Origin: Stutzerimonas nosocomialis
GTDB taxonomy: Bacteria > Pseudomonadota > Gammaproteobacteria > Pseudomonadales > Pseudomonadaceae
Direction of reading: 5' to 3'
DNA: 64,000 nucleotides
Assembly: GCF_005876855.1 (NCBI RefSeq)
Contig: NZ_QLAE01000009.1
Span: forward strand, 91,280-155,279
A program made the translations under genes and the position numbers. Below are positions 56,957 through 63,999 of this stretch, piece by piece (the stretch's first letter is position 1; each line of letters opens with the position of its first letter). Below the pieces are notes generated by a model. That model made no database searches. It saw nothing but the letters and a program-made list of their open reading frames with translations, and had not been told where the DNA came from.

Positions 56957-57286
56957 TCAGTTGCTGGTGCCGGTGCCCGTTCCGGTCCCGGTTCCAGTAC
57001 CGCCCATGCCGGTTCCGGTACCCGTTTCGGTTCCCATGGTGCCGGTGCCGGTTCCAACGCCCGAGCCGGTGCCCGGTGCGCCGGTCTGGGTGCCGTCGAC
57101 ACCGCCGGTCCCGGCGGGCCCGGTTCCGGTGGCGCTGCCCGCGCCGGTCTGGGTTCCGGCAGCGCCGGTGCCGGTGGTGCTGCCGTGTTCCATCGAGTCG
57201 TGACTACCGCTACCGGCGCCGCCGGCAAAGGCGGCGGTGGACATCAGGCCGGCAAACGTCAGGGCGGCGATCTTGGTCATTTTCAT
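56957..57286 (-). CDS. Secreted Gly/Thr repeat protein (109 aa)
   Basis: Signal peptide MKMTKIAALTFAGLMSTAAFA. The rest is nearly pure Gly-Thr with a few Ala, Pro, Ser and Gln: repeats such as [18 protein letters not shown] and a closing run of GTGT units. A HDSMEHG segment near 28-34 is the only charged part. Encoded by a hexanucleotide-like repeat (57160-56960). Start ATG has GGAG seven bases upstream. Unknown function; disordered, perhaps cell-surface. Repeat length is likely variable between strains. Own terminator with UUCG loop. Confidence 0.72.
   Translation of the reverse strand: MKMTKIAALTFAGLMSTAAFAGGAGSGSHDSMEHGSTTGTGAAGTQTGAGSATGTGPAGTGGVDGTQTGAPGTGSGVGTGTGTMGTETGTGTGMGGTGTGTGTGTGTSN
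56960..57165 (-). repeat. Degenerate hexanucleotide repeat (GGNACC-type)
   Basis: The coding part of the Gly/Thr protein is a degenerate tandem array of six-base units such as CCGGTG/CCGGTT on the plus strand, equal to GGCACC/GGAACC on the coding strand (Gly-Thr pairs). Slipped-strand change in multiples of 6 would keep frame. Confidence 0.65.
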
Positions 57287-57422: not shown

Positions 57423-58496
57423 TCAGGCTTCGGCCGTGCGCTGCGGGCGGTCGCCGAGCAGATCCTCGACGTAGAACCGCCGGATCATCACCATGCCCAC
57501 CGCCGCCAGCGGCGTCGCCAGCAGCAGCCCGAGGGTGCCGGCCAGCAGCCCGAACAACAGCTGCATGCCGATGGTGATCGCCGGCGGCACCGACACGATG
57601 CGCTTCTGCAGCCAGGGCGTCAGGCCGTAGCTTTCGATGGCCTGCACCAGCAGGTAGAGGCCCACCACCCAGAGCACGGTATCCATCCCTTCGAGCGACG
57701 CCAGCAGCAGCGCCGGGACCACCGCCAGCACCGGCCCGACGTTGGGGATGAACGACAGCAGGCCGGCGATCAACCCCAGCACCAGCGCCAGCTCGATGCC
57801 GAGCAGCCACAGGCCGAGGGTGGTCAGCACGCCGATCAGGAGCATCTCGAACAGCTTGGCGATCAGCCAGGACTGCAGGGTCGAACCGGTTTCCCTGAGC
57901 ACTTTCCCTGCCCGCGGCCGATAGCCCGGCGGAACGAGCATCAGCAAGCCGTTGAAATACACGCCAGGGGTCAGGCTCAGGCAGATGCCGAGCACCAGGG
58001 CGATACCGAAGCCGGCCAGCGCCCCCAGGGTGGACGACATGACCTGCGCCACCGTGCCGAACACCCCGCCGCCTCCGCCCGAGACGGCCGCCTCGATCTG
58101 CTCGCGGCGCTCCATCAGCCAGCGGTAGCTGGGCGAATCCTCGGCACGCGTCTGCAGCCGCTCGATCGCCTGGGGCAACGAGTCGGACAGCGCATCGAAC
58201 TGCTCGGCGATGCTCGGCGCGATCAGCACGCCGGCGAGTGCGGTCAGCCCCAGCAGCGCCACGAAGAAGGTCGCCAGGGCCGCCTTGCGCGGCATGCCGG
58301 TCTTGTCGCGAATCCAGCAGCTGATGCCATGGAACATCACCCCGAACAGCACGGCGGCGAACAGCATCAAGAGAAAATCGAAGGCCAGCCAGCCGACGAT
58401 GCAGAGCACCACCACCAGTGCCAGGACGCACGCCTGAATGAGGGTTCGGGTCGCTACCGCCTTGCCTTCGTGTCGCTGCCCCTCGGGCGCCGCCAT
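57423..58496 (-). CDS. AI-2E family membrane protein
   Basis: Integral membrane protein of 357 residues, eight hydrophobic segments with a long soluble loop after the third (about 80-150, IAEQFDALSDSLPQAIERLQTRAED). The family includes TqsA (AI-2 export) and PerM-like proteins with other ions as substrates. The PGYRPRAGKVLRETGSTLQSW cytoplasmic segment is typical. ATG at 58496 gives a short hydrophilic lead. The actual cargo is unknown. Lies downstream of an OPT-family gene on the same strand. Confidence 0.9.
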   Translation of the reverse strand: MAAPEGQRHEGKAVATRTLIQACVLALVVVLCIVGWLAFDFLLMLFAAVLFGVMFHGISCWIRDKTGMPRKAALATFFVALLGLTALAGVLIAPSIAEQFDALSDSLPQAIERLQTRAEDSPSYRWLMERREQIEAAVSGGGGGVFGTVAQVMSSTLGALAGFGIALVLGICLSLTPGVYFNGLLMLVPPGYRPRAGKVLRETGSTLQSWLIAKLFEMLLIGVLTTLGLWLLGIELALVLGLIAGLLSFIPNVGPVLAVVPALLLASLEGMDTVLWVVGLYLLVQAIESYGLTPWLQKRIVSVPPAITIGMQLLFGLLAGTLGLLLATPLAAVGMVMIRRFYVEDLLGDRPQRTAEA

Positions 58497-58596: not shown

Positions 58597-60291
58597 TCAA
58601 CGCAGCAACGCCCAGAGCGAGGCGCCGACGCCGGTGATGCTTTCACCGGCCACCAGGCCCGCCGCCGCGGCGATCACGAAGCGCTCGGCGAGGCTGCGCC
58701 AGCGTGACGCCACCAGCCAGGCCAGCACGGCGCCGAAGGTCATCATCAGCGAGATCGAGGCCGGGATGATGAACGCCAGCCCGAGCGCCGCGGAGCTGGG
58801 CAGCCAGCGCAGACGATCCGCCGGCAGCAGCGCCTCGAGCGCACCGAGGGCGATGCCGCACAGGGCCCCGGCGAGCATCGCCCAGCGGATGTCCATCGCC
58901 AGCGCGCCGAGCCCTCCGGTCAGCGCCTCGGCCACGGCACGCCAGGTCGCCACCGCGGGCGCAGGCCATTCGTTGGTCACCAGCATCCCTTGCGGATCGG
59001 GAATCAGCGCCTTGTACACCAGCACGCCCACCAGGCTGCCCATGAGGATGCCCAGGCACTGGGCGATCACCTGGCGCGACGGCGACGCACCGATCACATG
59101 GCCGACCTTGAAGTCGTTGAGCAGGTCGGTGCACTGGCCCGCCGCGCCGCCGGCGGTGTTGGCGCTCATCAGGTTGATCGCCACCTGCCCTGGCGCCATC
59201 ACCCCGAAGCTCAGCTGCGAGAGCTGGCCGATGGCACCGATCGGCGGAATCCCGGTCGCCCCGACCACCCGGGCGGCGACCATCGCCAGCAGCACGGCCA
59301 GAGGAATCGACAGCGCCGCCATCACCGGATTGATGTCGAACAGTCGGGTCTGCAACACCACCACCAGCACGGCGGCGCTGAGCAGGCCCAGCGCCGGCAG
59401 CCCGGCCGGACGCCGCCAGGCGCCGCGCCGCGACCGCTCGCGGCGCTCGCGCAGCAGGCGCAGCCCGAGCGAGGTGAGGGTGGCGCAGACCATCAGGCTC
59501 ACCCCCGGCCAGAGCAGCCATTCGATCAGGACGGCGAATTGCGGCCCCTCGGCACCGGCCGGCAGGCCGACCGCGCCCAGGCCGAGCAGCGCGGGAGCGA
59601 TCACCCCCCAGGCCAGCACGGCACCGAACAGCAGCGAGAGGCCGACCCGCAGGCCGATGATGCCGCCGAACCCAACCAGCAACAGCGACGGTTCCAGGGT
59701 GAAGGTCAGGCGTTCGAGCGCCGCGTTCGGCGCCCAGCGCGGCAGGCTCAGCACGAACACATCGATGGCCTTGAGCAGACCGGCCAGCAGCGCCGCGCCG
59801 CCGAGCACCGCCAGCCGCCGCAGCGCCTCGCGGCCGTGGCTGTAGATCTGCTGCATGGTTTCCAGCGTGGCCATGCCTTCGGGAAAGCGCAGCCCCGAGT
59901 CGACCACCAGCGAGCGGCGCAAGTACCAGGCGACCCAGATGCCGAGAAAGCTCACCGAGAACACCCAGGCGATCAGCGGCAGCGTGTCGAGCTGCTGGCC
60001 GGTGAGCAGCGTGTAGGCCGGGATCGGCGCCACCAGCCCGCCGGAAATGATCGAAGCGGCCGACGAGGCGGTGGTCTGGGTGATGTTGCTCTCGCGCAGC
60101 GCCCATTTCGGTCGGCCCAAGGCGCCGGCCAGCAACTGCCAGAACGCGAAGCCGACCAGCAGGGCGATGATCGACATGTTGAACGACCAGCCGATCTTGA
60201 GTCCCGAATAGATGTTCGACGGGGTCAGCAGCGCGCCGAGCAGCAGCCCGGTGGCCAGGGCGCGAACGGTCAGTTCACGGGACTCGCTCAT
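58597..60291 (-). CDS. OPT-family transporter
   Basis: Membrane protein of 564 residues with about 14 hydrophobic segments, the oligopeptide-transporter (OPT/YSL) family. Typical elements are LLGALLTPSNIYSGLKIGWSFNMSII near the N-terminus, ANTAGGAAGQCTDLLNDFKVGHVIGASP in the middle and LPSSAALGLAFIIPASISL near the end. OPT proteins move small peptides or metal-chelates. ATG at 60291 is chosen (GGA six bases before); an ATG two codons upstream is also in frame. Divergent from the curli cluster. Confidence 0.9.
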   Translation of the reverse strand: MSESRELTVRALATGLLLGALLTPSNIYSGLKIGWSFNMSIIALLVGFAFWQLLAGALGRPKWALRESNITQTTASSAASIISGGLVAPIPAYTLLTGQQLDTLPLIAWVFSVSFLGIWVAWYLRRSLVVDSGLRFPEGMATLETMQQIYSHGREALRRLAVLGGAALLAGLLKAIDVFVLSLPRWAPNAALERLTFTLEPSLLLVGFGGIIGLRVGLSLLFGAVLAWGVIAPALLGLGAVGLPAGAEGPQFAVLIEWLLWPGVSLMVCATLTSLGLRLLRERRERSRRGAWRRPAGLPALGLLSAAVLVVVLQTRLFDINPVMAALSIPLAVLLAMVAARVVGATGIPPIGAIGQLSQLSFGVMAPGQVAINLMSANTAGGAAGQCTDLLNDFKVGHVIGASPSRQVIAQCLGILMGSLVGVLVYKALIPDPQGMLVTNEWPAPAVATWRAVAEALTGGLGALAMDIRWAMLAGALCGIALGALEALLPADRLRWLPSSAALGLAFIIPASISLMMTFGAVLAWLVASRWRSLAERFVIAAAAGLVAGESITGVGASLWALLR

Positions 60292-60448
60292 ATGCATTCC
60301 AATCAACTTGGTCCGGTGAACCCTAGCCCACAAAACGTGCGCCAAATAGTCGACATGACAGGCAACGGTGGCGTTTAGCCATTGAAGCCATTGAGGAAAT
60401 TACCTTTCGTCGGCTCGCCAGAACTCGACCTAGAGCCAGTTCCCAAGC

Positions 60449-60537: not shown

Positions 60538-61194
60538 ATGGATGCTCCCGTAAAAACCGCTTCGATTCCGACCTCGACCGTGACCCTGGTAACCAGCAAC
60601 GAGCTGCTGGGCCTGTTCTTTCGCCACTTTCTCGGCGAGCACAGCCAGGTGCAGTTGTGCGTCGCCGCGTTCGGCGGCAAATGCCAGCGCACGGATCTCT
60701 GGCTGCTCGACGCCGGACAATGCGAACCCCAGGCGCTTGGCGAGTTCATCGAACAGCACGATGACGGCGCGCCCTTCGCCCTGGTCAACATCACCCCCGC
60801 GCAGGCCGAGTGGCTGGTGGACCGGCACCCCACCATCCGCGGGGTGTTCTACAGCCAGGCCACCCGCGAGCAGCTGCTGAGCGGCATCATGGCGCTGATC
60901 GAAGGCGGCGACTGGCTGCCCCGCGCACTCATGGAGCGCATGCTCGCCGAGCTGCGCCGCGCCCGGCAGCAGGCCGAAAGCAAGACCGAACTGACCCTGC
61001 GCGAGCGCGAGATCCTGAGCCTGGCCGGCAAGGGCCTGTCCAACGCCGAGATCGCCGCGCAACTGTGCCTGAGCCCGCACACCATCAAGAGTCACATCCA
61101 CAACCTGTTGCGCAAGCTCGGCGCCAGCAATCGCGCCGAGGCGGCCTTCCTGCTGCGCGATCGCCTGGACTGGAGCGAGTCGTGTCGCGCCTGA
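60538..61194 (+). CDS. csgD: LuxR-type curli regulator, CsgD-like
   Basis: Regulator of 218 residues. N-terminal ~1-130 is a receiver-like fold without the phosphorylation triad (VTLVTSNELLGLFFRHFL, then LLDAGQCEP), as in enteric CsgD. The C-terminal LuxR HTH covers about 152-210: ELTLREREILSLAGKGLSNAEIAAQ, then SPHTIKSHIHNLLRKLGASNRAEA. Start ATG at 60538. It overlaps csgE by 13 bp, so the operon is translationally coupled. Probably activates this curli operon; direct binding not shown. Confidence 0.9.
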   Translation: MDAPVKTASIPTSTVTLVTSNELLGLFFRHFLGEHSQVQLCVAAFGGKCQRTDLWLLDAGQCEPQALGEFIEQHDDGAPFALVNITPAQAEWLVDRHPTIRGVFYSQATREQLLSGIMALIEGGDWLPRALMERMLAELRRARQQAESKTELTLREREILSLAGKGLSNAEIAAQLCLSPHTIKSHIHNLLRKLGASNRAEAAFLLRDRLDWSESCRA

Positions 61195-61580
61195 TTCGCG
61201 CCGGCCTGCTCCTGCTGGCGCTGGCGGCGCCGTCCGCCGGCGCGCAGGAAGAGGAAGCCGAGGTGTATGGCCTGGTGGTCGACAACACCATCACCCGCTT
61301 CGGCCACGACTTCCACCGCTACTTGAGCGCCCGCCTGCAGGACACCAGCCCGATGGACTTCGACCTGGTGGTTCGCGAGCGTCCTTCGGCCCGCTGGGGC
61401 AGCCTGGTGTGGGTCGAACACAACCGGAACATTCTCTATCGACGCTTCCTGCAACCCAACGTGGCGCAGATCGAGGAGATCGCCACCCAGGCCGCCGACC
61501 TGGTGCTCGAGGAAATCAACCGCGCAAAACTGCAAAGCCTGCTGCAAGACACCTTCGACATGGAAAGGGATGAACTATGA
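61182..61580 (+). CDS. csgE: Curli assembly protein CsgE
   Basis: Periplasmic factor of 132 residues (E. coli 129) that caps the CsgG pore and delivers the curlin subunit. A signal peptide with LIRAGLLLLALAAPSAGAQ precedes the mature chain. The family block LVVRERPSARWGSLVWVEHN, then ILYRRFLQP, matches the CsgE signature closely. Start is GTG at 61182, inside the end of csgD, with GGAG six bases upstream. It overlaps csgF by 4 bp (ATGA at 61577). Confidence 0.92.
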   Translation: MSRLIRAGLLLLALAAPSAGAQEEEAEVYGLVVDNTITRFGHDFHRYLSARLQDTSPMDFDLVVRERPSARWGSLVWVEHNRNILYRRFLQPNVAQIEEIATQAADLVLEEINRAKLQSLLQDTFDMERDEL

Positions 61581-61993
61581 GCACCCATCGCACCCTCCTG
61601 CCGGCCTGCCTGATGGCGCTCGGCGCCCTGGCCTTCGAGGCCACCGCCACCGAGCTGGTATACACGCCGGTGAACCCGTCGTTCGGCGGCAACCCCCTCA
61701 ACGGCGCCTATCTGCTCGGTAACGCGCAGTCCCAGGACGACAACAAGAACCCCGACGCCCTGTCGCGCTCGGCGACCACCACCTCGGCGCTGAGCCGCTT
61801 CACCAGCCAGCTGGAGTCGCGCCTGCTCTCCCAGCTGCTCACCGACGTCAGCGACGGCAAGGGCGGCGGCAGCCTCACCACCAACGACTTCATCGTCAAC
61901 ATCGTCGATCTGGACGGCATGCTCACGGTGCAGATCACCGACCGGCTGACCGGCGAAATGTCGGAAATCATCATCAACGGCGTCGCCCCATAA
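61577..61993 (+). CDS. csgF: Curli assembly protein CsgF
   Basis: Exported protein of 138 residues that binds the extracellular rim of the CsgG pore and anchors the nucleator. Signal peptide THRTLLPACLMALGALAFEATA. The N-terminal region of the mature protein, TELVYTPVNPSFGGNPLNG, is the conserved CsgF pore-binding segment. The middle is polar, and the end, DGMLTVQITDRLTGEMSEI, is typical. Starts in the csgE stop (ATGA). Followed by csgG after 25 bp. Confidence 0.94.
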   Translation: MSTHRTLLPACLMALGALAFEATATELVYTPVNPSFGGNPLNGAYLLGNAQSQDDNKNPDALSRSATTTSALSRFTSQLESRLLSQLLTDVSDGKGGGSLTTNDFIVNIVDLDGMLTVQITDRLTGEMSEIIINGVAP

Positions 61994-62018
61994 CCCGCGC
62001 AGAAGGCGTTCGAGCAAA

Positions 62019-62873
62019 ATGAACAGGACGATCACTGCAGCGTTACTCGTGACGCTGCTCGGCGGGTGCGCGCTGCGCGAACCGATGCCGGCCGACCAGG
62101 GCGAGACCCCGACCCTCACACCCCGAACCTCGACCTACGAGGACCTGCTGCAACTGCCGCGACCGAGCGGCCGGCTGGTCGCGGCGGTCTATGGCTTCCG
62201 CGACCAGAGCGGGCAATACAAGCCGGGACCGGCGAGCTCCTTTTCCACCGCGGTGACCCAGGGCGCGGCGAGCATGCTGGTCGATGCCATGCAGGCCAGC
62301 GGCTGGTTCATCGTGCTCGAGCGCGAGGGCCTGCAGAACGTGCTGACCGAGCGCAAGATCATTCGCGCCTCGCAGAACAAGCCGAACATCCCGGAAAACA
62401 TCCAGGCCGATCTCCCCTCGCTGCAGGCGGCCAACATCATTCTCGAAGGCAACATCGTCGGCTACGACACCAACGTGCGCACCGGTGGCCTGGGCGCCCG
62501 CTACCTGGGCGTCGGCGCCTCGCAGGAATACCGGGTGGACCAGGTCACGGTGAACCTGCGCGCGGTGGACGTGCGCAGCAGCCAGGTGCTGGCCAACGTG
62601 ATGACGTCCAAGACCATCTACTCGATCGCCCGCTCGGCCAGCGTGTTCAAGTTCATCGAGTACAGGGAACTGCTCGAAGCCGAGGCCGGCTACACCACCA
62701 ACGAACCGGCGCAGCTGTGCGTGCTGTCGGCCATCGAAGCCGCCGTGGCGCACCTGGTGGCCCAGGGCATCGAGCGCAACCTCTGGCGCGTCGCCGACGG
62801 CCAGGTACTGGAGAACACCTCGCTGAGCAAATACCTGAGCAGCTCGCTGGTCCAGGCGTCGCCGAGGAATTAA
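62019..62873 (+). CDS. csgG: Curli secretion channel lipoprotein CsgG
   Basis: Outer-membrane lipoprotein of 284 residues (E. coli 277) forming the nonameric secretion pore. Lipobox LLGG-Cys17 is modified by Lgt. The periplasmic domain has LVAAVYGFRDQSGQYKPGP and TQGAASMLVDAMQASGWF, followed by the transmembrane hairpin segments, with IRASQNKPNIPENIQA as the conserved pore-side block. Near the end RNLWRVADG is like the family. 102 bp to the curlin gene. Confidence 0.95.
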   Translation: MNRTITAALLVTLLGGCALREPMPADQGETPTLTPRTSTYEDLLQLPRPSGRLVAAVYGFRDQSGQYKPGPASSFSTAVTQGAASMLVDAMQASGWFIVLEREGLQNVLTERKIIRASQNKPNIPENIQADLPSLQAANIILEGNIVGYDTNVRTGGLGARYLGVGASQEYRVDQVTVNLRAVDVRSSQVLANVMTSKTIYSIARSASVFKFIEYRELLEAEAGYTTNEPAQLCVLSAIEAAVAHLVAQGIERNLWRVADGQVLENTSLSKYLSSSLVQASPRN

Positions 62874-62975
62874 TCCCGGCACGCCCGCCAGCCCGCCCGC
62901 TTTACACCGTGTGGCGGATGCGCCCCGACGCCGCGTCGGCCACAATCAACACCTTGCGTTTCGAGGGACCATGCG

Positions 62976-63467
62976 ATGAACAGTCTCTGGATCAGAGCCG
63001 GCCTGCTCGGCGCCGCACTGCTGTCGAGTTCGACGCTGCTGGCCTCCGACGACCTGGTCGACAATGGCGATCTCTTCGGCAGCAGCAGCTTCACCGTCGG
63101 CAGCAGCATCCCGGGCCTCGGTACGCCTCCGCCCGACGGGCAGAGCGCCCTGGTGCAGCAGCAGGGCACGCAGAACGTCGCCACCCTGGAGCAGAGCGGC
63201 CAGGGCCTGCTGGGCGACATCGTCCAGCAGGGCAGCGACCAGGAAGCCTACATTCTTCAGCAGGGCACCAACTCGGTGGCCAGCATCCTGCAGTCCGGCT
63301 ACGGCAACGCCGCCAGCATCAACCAGACGGGCGACGGCAACGAGGCCGCGATCGTCCAGCACGGTGCCTACAACAATGCGGGCATCAACCAGTACGGCGA
63401 TGGCCTGCAGAGTTCGGTCATCCAGTTCGGCGACGGCCAGACCATCCAGATCAACCAATACCGCTGA
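62976..63467 (+). CDS. csgB: Curlin repeat protein (CsgB/CsgA-like)
   Basis: Secreted amyloid subunit of 163 residues. Signal peptide AGLLGAALLSSSTLLAS. A 30-residue linker (25-57) leads into five ~22-residue curlin repeats: 58-80, 81-102, 103-124, 125-146, and a shorter 147-163. Each has the alternating pattern Q..G..N..A with I/V/L strands, e.g. SILQSGYGNAASINQTG. The last ends QYR like CsgB. Whether it nucleates (CsgB) or is the major subunit (CsgA) is uncertain; no second curlin gene is in view. Confidence 0.88.
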   Translation: MNSLWIRAGLLGAALLSSSTLLASDDLVDNGDLFGSSSFTVGSSIPGLGTPPPDGQSALVQQQGTQNVATLEQSGQGLLGDIVQQGSDQEAYILQQGTNSVASILQSGYGNAASINQTGDGNEAAIVQHGAYNNAGINQYGDGLQSSVIQFGDGQTIQINQYR

Positions 63468-63481
63468 GCCTGCCCGCCCGC

Positions 63482-63504
63482 GGTCTCGCCAGACCGGCGA
63501 GACC
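63482..63504 (+). promoter_or_regulatory. Hairpin after the curlin gene
   Basis: GGTCTCGCC and GGCGAGACC, 9-bp stem with 5-nt loop, 14 bp past the curlin stop and without a T run. It could stabilise the curlin mRNA and limit expression of the next gene. Confidence 0.5.
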
Positions 63505-63586
63505 GGCGCGGCCCCGGCGGTCATGCCGCGGTAACGGCCAGCCGTCACCCTGACGCAGGCCCAACCCGACCATCGAGGACATCGCC

Positions 63587-63655
63587 ATGAGCACCGTCAT
63601 TTTCGTCAGCGGCGCACCAGCGCGGCTCCCTGGGGCCGGGCGGTGCGGATGTTGA
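63587..63655 (+). CDS. Mini-ORF overlapping the CsgC/H-like start
   Basis: ATG at 63587 has a good ribosome site (GAGGA, seven bases upstream) and reads 22 codons (MSTVIFVSGAPARLPGAGRC..) to a TGA at 63653-63655. That stop lies within the first codons of the CsgC/H-like frame (GTG 63643, ATG 63649). It may be a translational-coupling leader, or the true start of the gene separated by a frameshift. No homology is claimed. Confidence 0.35.
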   Translation: MSTVIFVSGAPARLPGAGRCGC

Positions 63656-63999
63656 GCATGGCCCTGGGCGGCTGGCTGATCGCCGCGGCGCCCGGCGGGG
63701 TCGAGGTGCAGCTGCAGCTCGAGCCGGTCGAACAGGAGCGGGTGGAACTGGCGCTGTGCCTGCGCGGCAGCGGCCAGCGGGTCGACTATCGGCTGACCGT
63801 GAGGGCCAGGGGTCTGGCCGGTACCAGCCAGACCAGCCAGGGCGGCCAGCTGACCCTGTCGGACCAGCCCCAGTGTCCGCTGCGCAACCGGCTCGGCATC
63901 AGCCCCGGCGCGCATCTGGACGCGGAGCTGCAGTGGTCGGTCGATGGCGTCGAACAGCCGCCGCTGCAGCGCTCCTACCCCGACCAGCACGACGCCTAG
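63643..63999 (+). CDS. CsgC/CsgH-like curli chaperone
   Basis: About 118 residues. Short hydrophobic start MLSMALGGWLIAAAP, then a beta-rich domain with VEVQLQLEPVEQERVELAL, GLAGTSQTSQGGQLTLSD and DAELQWSVDGVEQPPLQ. The SGxSQTxQ-type turn and overall pattern resemble CsgC (E. coli) and CsgH, periplasmic inhibitors of premature amyloid formation. The CxC pair of E. coli CsgC is replaced by two separate Cys. Start is uncertain: GTG 63643, or ATG at 63649 or 63658, or the upstream mini-ORF after a frameshift. Ends at TAG 63997-63999. Confidence 0.68.
   Translation: MRMLSMALGGWLIAAAPGGVEVQLQLEPVEQERVELALCLRGSGQRVDYRLTVRARGLAGTSQTSQGGQLTLSDQPQCPLRNRLGISPGAHLDAELQWSVDGVEQPPLQRSYPDQHDA

Follow-up and report, generated by a model that had tools for sequence, protein, structure and literature searches.

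A curli gene cluster at the end of the window

At the 3' end of the window, by which we mean the whole analysed stretch of 64,000 nucleotides from Stutzerimonas nosocomialis (contig NZ_QLAE01000009.1, positions 91,280 to 155,279), lie six genes for curli, the fibrous protein glue that holds bacteria together in biofilms, with a palindromic site ahead of the curlin gene. In the usual picture of curli, one CsgA, one CsgB and their exporter are encoded in one place. The features of the cluster, with product lengths in amino acids (aa), are:

60538-61194, plus strand: csgD2-like regulator gene of the LuxR family, 218 aa
61182-61580, plus strand: csgE, periplasmic adaptor of the exporter, 132 aa, GTG start
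61577-61993, plus strand: csgF, surface assembly factor, 138 aa
62019-62873, plus strand: csgG, outer-membrane secretion channel, 284 aa
62867-62876, no strand: palindrome GAATTAATCC, one mismatch to GGATTAATCC, which overlaps the stop of csgG, lies 100 bp 5' of the curlin and is followed by a GCTTTACACCGTG block
62976-63467, plus strand: CsgB-like curlin, the sole curlin of the cluster, 163 aa
63649-63999, plus strand: CsgH-like periplasmic anti-amyloid chaperone, 116 aa

An earlier note on this DNA had placed six genes on the plus strand here, with overlaps of 13 bp between csgD and csgE and of 4 bp between csgE and csgF; coordinates and profiles confirm the genes, both overlaps hold, and its description of a curli cluster that is colinear, unlike the divergent enteric layout, and stands beside an OPT-family transporter gene is supported. 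By the same coordinates, gaps of 102 bp (csgG to curlin) and 181 bp (curlin to csgH) flank the curlin.

CsgE reached 1.8e-36 in Pfam and 138.5 bits in NCBIfam, above the cut-off of 137, and matched PDB entry 2na4 at 5.6e-14. Like CsgE, CsgF (2.3e-31) and CsgG (5.7e-78) were far above their Pfam cut-offs, but these two fell under those of NCBIfam (89.7 bits for a cut-off of 171, and 305.3 bits for a cut-off of 505), and CsgG matched the PDB sequences of CsgG 6lqh (1.6e-84) and 3x2r (1.7e-84). The csgD product carries a LuxR-type GerE domain (Pfam, 5.1e-18) and has the CsgD equivalog as its best NCBIfam match, at 95.5 bits, below the cut-off of 250, so we call the regulator CsgD-like. Five stretches of the curlin matched Curlin_rpt (1.3e-15), with 4 strict QxGxxN and 9 QxG units, and it scored 72.5 bits as CsgB (NCBIfam cut-off 165) against 65.5 as CsgA (cut-off 160); as the CsgB score is below its cut-off, like that for CsgA, we call it CsgB-like only. 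The cluster thus holds a single curlin and not separate CsgA and CsgB subunits.

The last gene, described as csgC/H by the earlier note, is CsgH-like and not CsgC. Its product exceeded the NCBIfam CsgH cut-off (36.8 bits, cut-off 35) and fell under that of Pfam CsgH (16.7, cut-off 27), and its cysteines C39 and C78 (numbered in the 118-aa form), invariant in three sequences, lie far apart and not as CxC. An AlphaFold model from a three-sequence alignment (predicted local distance difference test score 83.8) gave CsgH 2n59 as the best Foldseek match at 1.5e-6 (template modelling scores 0.57/0.64), followed by CsgC 2xsk at 1.5e-4 (0.59/0.70), with other beta-sandwich domains matching from about 1e-3; by sequence alone, the match to 2n59 has E = 0.067. 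Judged by its sequence, the cluster is a curli (type VIII secretion) gene cluster of confirmed families, from which amyloid formation would be expected.

Two csg loci in the genus Stutzerimonas

The chromosome, called Pseudomonas-like in the earlier note, has its nearest named records in Stutzerimonas. That note had also called a full csg cluster next to an OPT transporter uncommon here, which the counts do not support: CsgF was found in 47 of the 56 genomes (species) of this genus and, family-wide, in 136 of the 398 genomes sampled, across 10 of 19 genera, and OPT flanks most relatives of this locus (below). The cluster is therefore largely ordinary in close relatives; what is rare is its exact order with csgH, seen in only three of the 45 genomes that have both CsgF and CsgH. 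CsgH was matched in 48 of the 56 genus genomes, with a search profile built from three sequences, and the window genome has one match each for CsgE, CsgF, CsgG and CsgH. Among 38 named loci (all those retrieved with the window CsgG, several truncated by contig ends), csgD-E-F-G stand on one strand in 33, 30 of these with same-strand downstream curlin matches, and the curlin lies on the opposite strand in two (L046 and L049). In S. urumqiensis T3, csgD-E-F-G form a tandem duplication, 4.5 kb apart (L023, 3234-9974).

CsgF and CsgH are both present in 45 genomes and lie within 10 kb of each other in three: the window genome (G000), G001 and the sister genome G002. They are far apart in 42 of the 56 genomes: 15 have them at least 849 kb apart on the same contig, and the other 27, three of these near contig starts, have them on separate contigs. 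They then belong to two csg loci, the first being csgD1-E-F-G-curlins and the second csgD2-(E)-curlinB-curlinA-csgH, without csgF and csgG and often linked to OPT. Outside G000–G002 there are 45 CsgH loci, of which 44 were read, leaving out that of G018 near a contig start. Their orders are csgD-csgE-curlinB-curlinA-csgH (20), csgD-curlinB-curlinA-csgH (19), csgD-curlinA-csgH (2), csgD-csgH (2) and csgD-curlinB-csgH (1), with OPT upstream in 36 of the 44.

The window locus resembles the second of these. The window CsgD is 64–69% identical to second-locus CsgD and 40–57% identical, over the aligned part, to first-locus CsgD, and the window curlin shares 45–55% identity with curlinB of three second loci and 53% with that of L020. 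Trees were built by a quick method: the window CsgD and six second-locus CsgDs fell on one branch (support 100, in a tree without an outgroup); the window, L015 and L020 formed a clade with the csgE-only locus of G050 for CsgE (support 97, in a tree where long branches meet) and a clade of their own for CsgF and CsgG together (support 97). The second loci L100 and L101, compared with the window locus, are in line with orthology. Because csgD identity, gene order and trees agree, we take the window locus to be a second locus with a full exporter set; on this comparison of sequences it is orthologous to the OPT-linked second locus, with full csgEFG as in three of the 45 genomes. A first locus is missing from the window genome, which makes this locus its only curli exporter.

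That the full csgEFG stands beside csgH in only three genomes, one of which (G001) carries two complete csgEFG sets, might also mean that csgEFG, or csgFG, came into the OPT-linked locus by insertion within the S. azotifigens clade, either out of the first locus or as foreign DNA, instead of being kept from an ancestral full operon. We regard this as rather unlikely, if the strongest of the alternatives discussed here: csgE occupies the same place in 20 of the 44 second loci and is there 69–77% identical to the window csgE, compared with 45–60% for other csgE, and all first-locus CsgF and CsgG sequences, including those of Halopseudomonas and P. profundi, lie beyond a branch of support 83 only. 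As the window csgF and csgG branch apart from first-locus sequences, they are not a recent first-locus copy. An old duplication with unequal loss is our favoured origin of the two loci, a transfer, perhaps out of an unsampled lineage, being the less favoured one.

Long curlin genes scattered through the genome

Pfam curlin repeats gave 22 matches in the window genome, and a profile of six long curlins gave 12 matches at E <= 0.01, belonging to nine genes including the csg curlin. The other eight are scattered amid unrelated ORFs (open reading frames; neighbours judged without profiles), two adjacent on contig C6 and the others singly on C9 (at a place beyond the window), C23, C33, C42, C43 and C49. 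Six of them are intact, encoding 345–432 aa with 12–17 QxGxxN and, by eye, signal-like starts. Syntenic counterparts of six of the eight are found in the six stretches of G002 compared, and ratios of non-synonymous to synonymous substitution (dN/dS) in five scattered pairs, one without its signal region, were 0.06–0.32, against 0.07–0.26 for the six csg genes. Across the genus, the long-curlin profile matched in 49 of 56 genomes (up to 19 matches per genome, pieces counted apart), and all 7 genomes without a match are also without CsgF. The main fibre subunits are probably encoded by these long curlin genes at unrelated sites.

A palindromic site ahead of curlin genes

The window genome contains three exact copies of GGATTAATCC and 30 sites with at most one mismatch, and the pattern read backwards occurs three times. 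Five of the 30 sites, including two of the three exact copies, lie 100–182 bp 5' of curlins (C6, C49, C23, C43 and the csg curlin), with about 0.014 expected by random placement (30 sites x 9 genes x 250 bp / 4.76 Mb, calculated after the fact). The sister genome G002 has the site at four of seven scattered curlin regions. The third exact copy (L116 position 1501, G000 C36:42512) lies away from curlins, near an ORF that looks ParA-like.

In other species, the site stands before curlinB in 33 of the 44 second loci, at the same place with or without csgE; across 243,744 bases 34 sites occur, 33 of them in this position, and 30 of the 40 second loci fetched after the motif had been named carry it. 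The candidate operator has the consensus AGG[G/C]ATTAATCC, and about 25 bp downstream a second block, TTTTnCAcCgT.CGATGG or, more loosely for other species, TTTTnCAnCn..GATGG, is conserved too; it was not used in picking the sites, and in the window genome it is clear only at the csg curlin, C23 and C9. A matrix of 29 distinct sites from other species, scanned over 159 kb made up of seven curlin loci together with the window, ranked five curlin promoters first, including the window site, with a sixth at place seven. A small test on 14 fresh regions found the site in four, three of them second-locus curlinB, against a mean of 0.08 after letter shuffling; 11 of the 512 tiles of the small-test loci have a site, curlin upstreams included. 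The window has this one site only, and none before csgD; since 33 of 100 shuffles of 64 kb contain one such match, a single chance match is not rare, and the weight of the window site comes from its place.

The position of the site bears on how the cluster is transcribed. The earlier note had proposed a simpler design, a single autoregulated transcript from csgD through csgE, csgF, csgG and the curlin to csgH, in which the lone curlin of the cluster would be the fibre subunit. The csgD/E and E/F overlaps, the single strand throughout, the one curlin and the failure to find a promoter consensus inside the cluster all fit such a transcript. Opposed to it are the gaps on either side of the curlin, the palindrome in the first of them with none before csgD, the recurrence of the site before curlinB in relatives whether or not csgE precedes it, and the long curlins elsewhere in the genome, four of which have the same site. 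On this evidence a single transcript seems quite improbable, the least plausible of the alternatives.

A probable single exporter for a dispersed set of curlins

With the sole palindrome in the csgG–curlin gap and the long curlins scattered, regulation looks split. We think it fairly probable that the cluster consists of two units, csgDEFG and curlin-csgH, and that its one exporter serves a dispersed curlin set. The exporter genes and csgD2 would form one transcription unit, and the nucleator and chaperone a second. Following the roles of the known families, CsgG would be the outer-membrane pore, fed by CsgE; CsgF would act at the surface, where the CsgB-like curlin would be the nucleator; and CsgH would keep subunits soluble in the periplasm. 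The major subunits would be encoded elsewhere, with the same palindromic site ahead of roughly half of them in this clade. The second unit and four of the eight scattered genes would share this palindrome as an operator, probably bound by CsgD2, since each of the 44 second loci has this regulator; and the scattered curlins would be exported by the cluster CsgG, since the genome has no other CsgE, CsgF or CsgG match.

Several observations weigh against this reading. The motif was first spotted by eye upstream of several curlins of the window genome and is thus post hoc, and the matrix was seeded with sites of at most one mismatch. The remaining four of the 8 scattered genes have no site within one mismatch (best 2, 3, 3 and 4), nor do the other three scattered regions of G002. 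Scattered curlin regions were checked for the site in five genomes, and in G001, G014 and G025 none of six carries it (best 2 or 3 mismatches), so it is two sister genomes that tie the site to scattered genes. No first-locus curlin region carries the site, 11 of the 44 second loci are without it, and, as the 44 are related, the counts overstate independence. Enrichment of k-mers across 60 curlin upstream groups did not single out the palindrome, related first-locus sequences dominating, and a consensus promoter and terminator scan of the cluster gave nothing above shuffles and no sigma-70-like promoter.

Further points on the same side concern the proteins themselves. Two scattered genes look broken, a C6 copy without an in-frame signal and the C33 copy, which is frame-split. 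The csg-type curlin carries a DL(M/V/L)DN block behind its signal, which the scattered curlins lack, so CsgE and CsgG may or may not recognise them. In two genomes, G050 (L099) and G005 (L101), csgD2, curlins and csgH are retained but neither CsgF nor CsgG was matched, in a CsgG search set (with G044) that included no genome with a known match; G050 retains csgE, and G005, with 5% contamination, has no CsgE match. Together with the six scattered regions that lack the site, these points would fit scattered curlin-repeat genes that are unrelated to curli export, using another secretion route or decaying. This we hold to be unlikely, given the signal-like starts, the 12–17 QxGxxN, the kept synteny and the dN/dS values, the site common to scattered genes and the csg curlin in two genomes, and the coincident absence of long-curlin and CsgF matches in 7 of 7 genus genomes. 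The broken-looking copies (L075 7399-8469 and L079 6360-7498) are both open in G002. In G044 the second locus (L102) is csgD2-csgH only, and the genome has no long-curlin, CsgE, CsgF or CsgG match.

The two-unit arrangement with one exporter stays our preferred reading, and the cluster most likely functions like other curli systems. A fuller version is tentative, in our estimate a little short of an even chance: the csg locus would supply pore, nucleator and chaperone to about nine dispersed curlins, with several diverged long subunits controlled at least partly via the palindromic operator, and mixed or alternative amyloid fibres would result. The genus keeps many curlin genes and has its exporter, nucleator and chaperone redistributed over two loci, and a control sequence appears, in one clade, to tie scattered genes to the csg locus. 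If true, this would offer a natural system to test the range of curlins that a single CsgG will take and the occurrence of mixed fibres, and the motif could be used to seek curlin regulons.

Edges and neighbouring genes

The assembly contig stops at the window end, directly after csgH. L015 (S. azotifigens 115A1) is 90% identical to the window region over 7 kb, and its operon likewise stops after csgH, the next ORF lying on the opposite strand and looking acyltransferase-like. A csgA hidden past the contig end was considered and rejected, none being seen in L015 or L020; as the L015 operon ends after csgH, there is no csgA beyond the edge as far as the sister genome tells. On the other side, a transporter gene outside the csg locus adjoins the cluster, divergent to csgD:

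58597-60345, minus strand: OPT-family transporter (Pfam OPT, 5.8e-100)

Beside it on the minus strand are two ORFs, a Gly-Thr-rich one with a signal-like start (56957-57286) and a membrane-like one of 357 aa (57423-58496). The OPT neighbourhood seems conserved, since similar-looking ORFs adjoin OPT in L101. Between the curlin and csgH, positions 63482-63504 form a perfect hairpin with a 9-bp stem (z -2.9); we claim no attenuator there because the hairpin is weaker in L015 (z only -1.3) and L020 (-1.4).

Comparison with known curli systems

Pseudomonas curli have been catalogued, and the parts of that study consulted name P. stutzeri as the only Pseudomonas with csgD near csg genes, note extra csgA/B copies in extra operons, describe Pseudomonadales operons as divergent with csgD apart, confine csgC to two other orders and treat csgH as alphaproteobacterial (Dueholm et al. 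2012, PMC3521004). Two csgD-headed loci, or scattered genes with a common site, are not described in the portions of its main text that we consulted. A distinct Pseudomonas clade appears in the CsgH family as presented in the sections seen of Taylor et al. 2016 (PMC4838910); the window protein shares with that family the distant cysteines, the same fold and the place beside a subunit gene, and differs, as far as those sections go, in that its gene shares a cluster with csgD-E-F-G. Some genomes carry more than two CsgA copies, their number declining to 14 copies and the maximum being 30, and curlin-like proteins also occur apart from csg operons, according to the excerpts consulted of Sleutel et al. 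2023 (PMC10192328), which describe no shared operator tying scattered copies to a csg locus. Among titles and abstract openings, with subscription journals mostly outside the scope, we found no publication that describes scattered curlins or a pair of csg loci in Stutzerimonas. Set beside these sources, as far as they were seen, the parts are already known, and the arrangement and the site look new.

Compared with the enteric csgDEFG and csgBAC operons of E. coli and Salmonella, the window cluster is colinear where those are divergent, encodes CsgH where they have CsgC, and has no second curlin, its long curlins being scattered. Shared with the enteric system are the exporter proteins, a CsgB-like curlin and a chaperone of the CsgC/H type, as well as a regulator gene ahead of the exporter genes and subunit genes that are probably under a promoter of their own.

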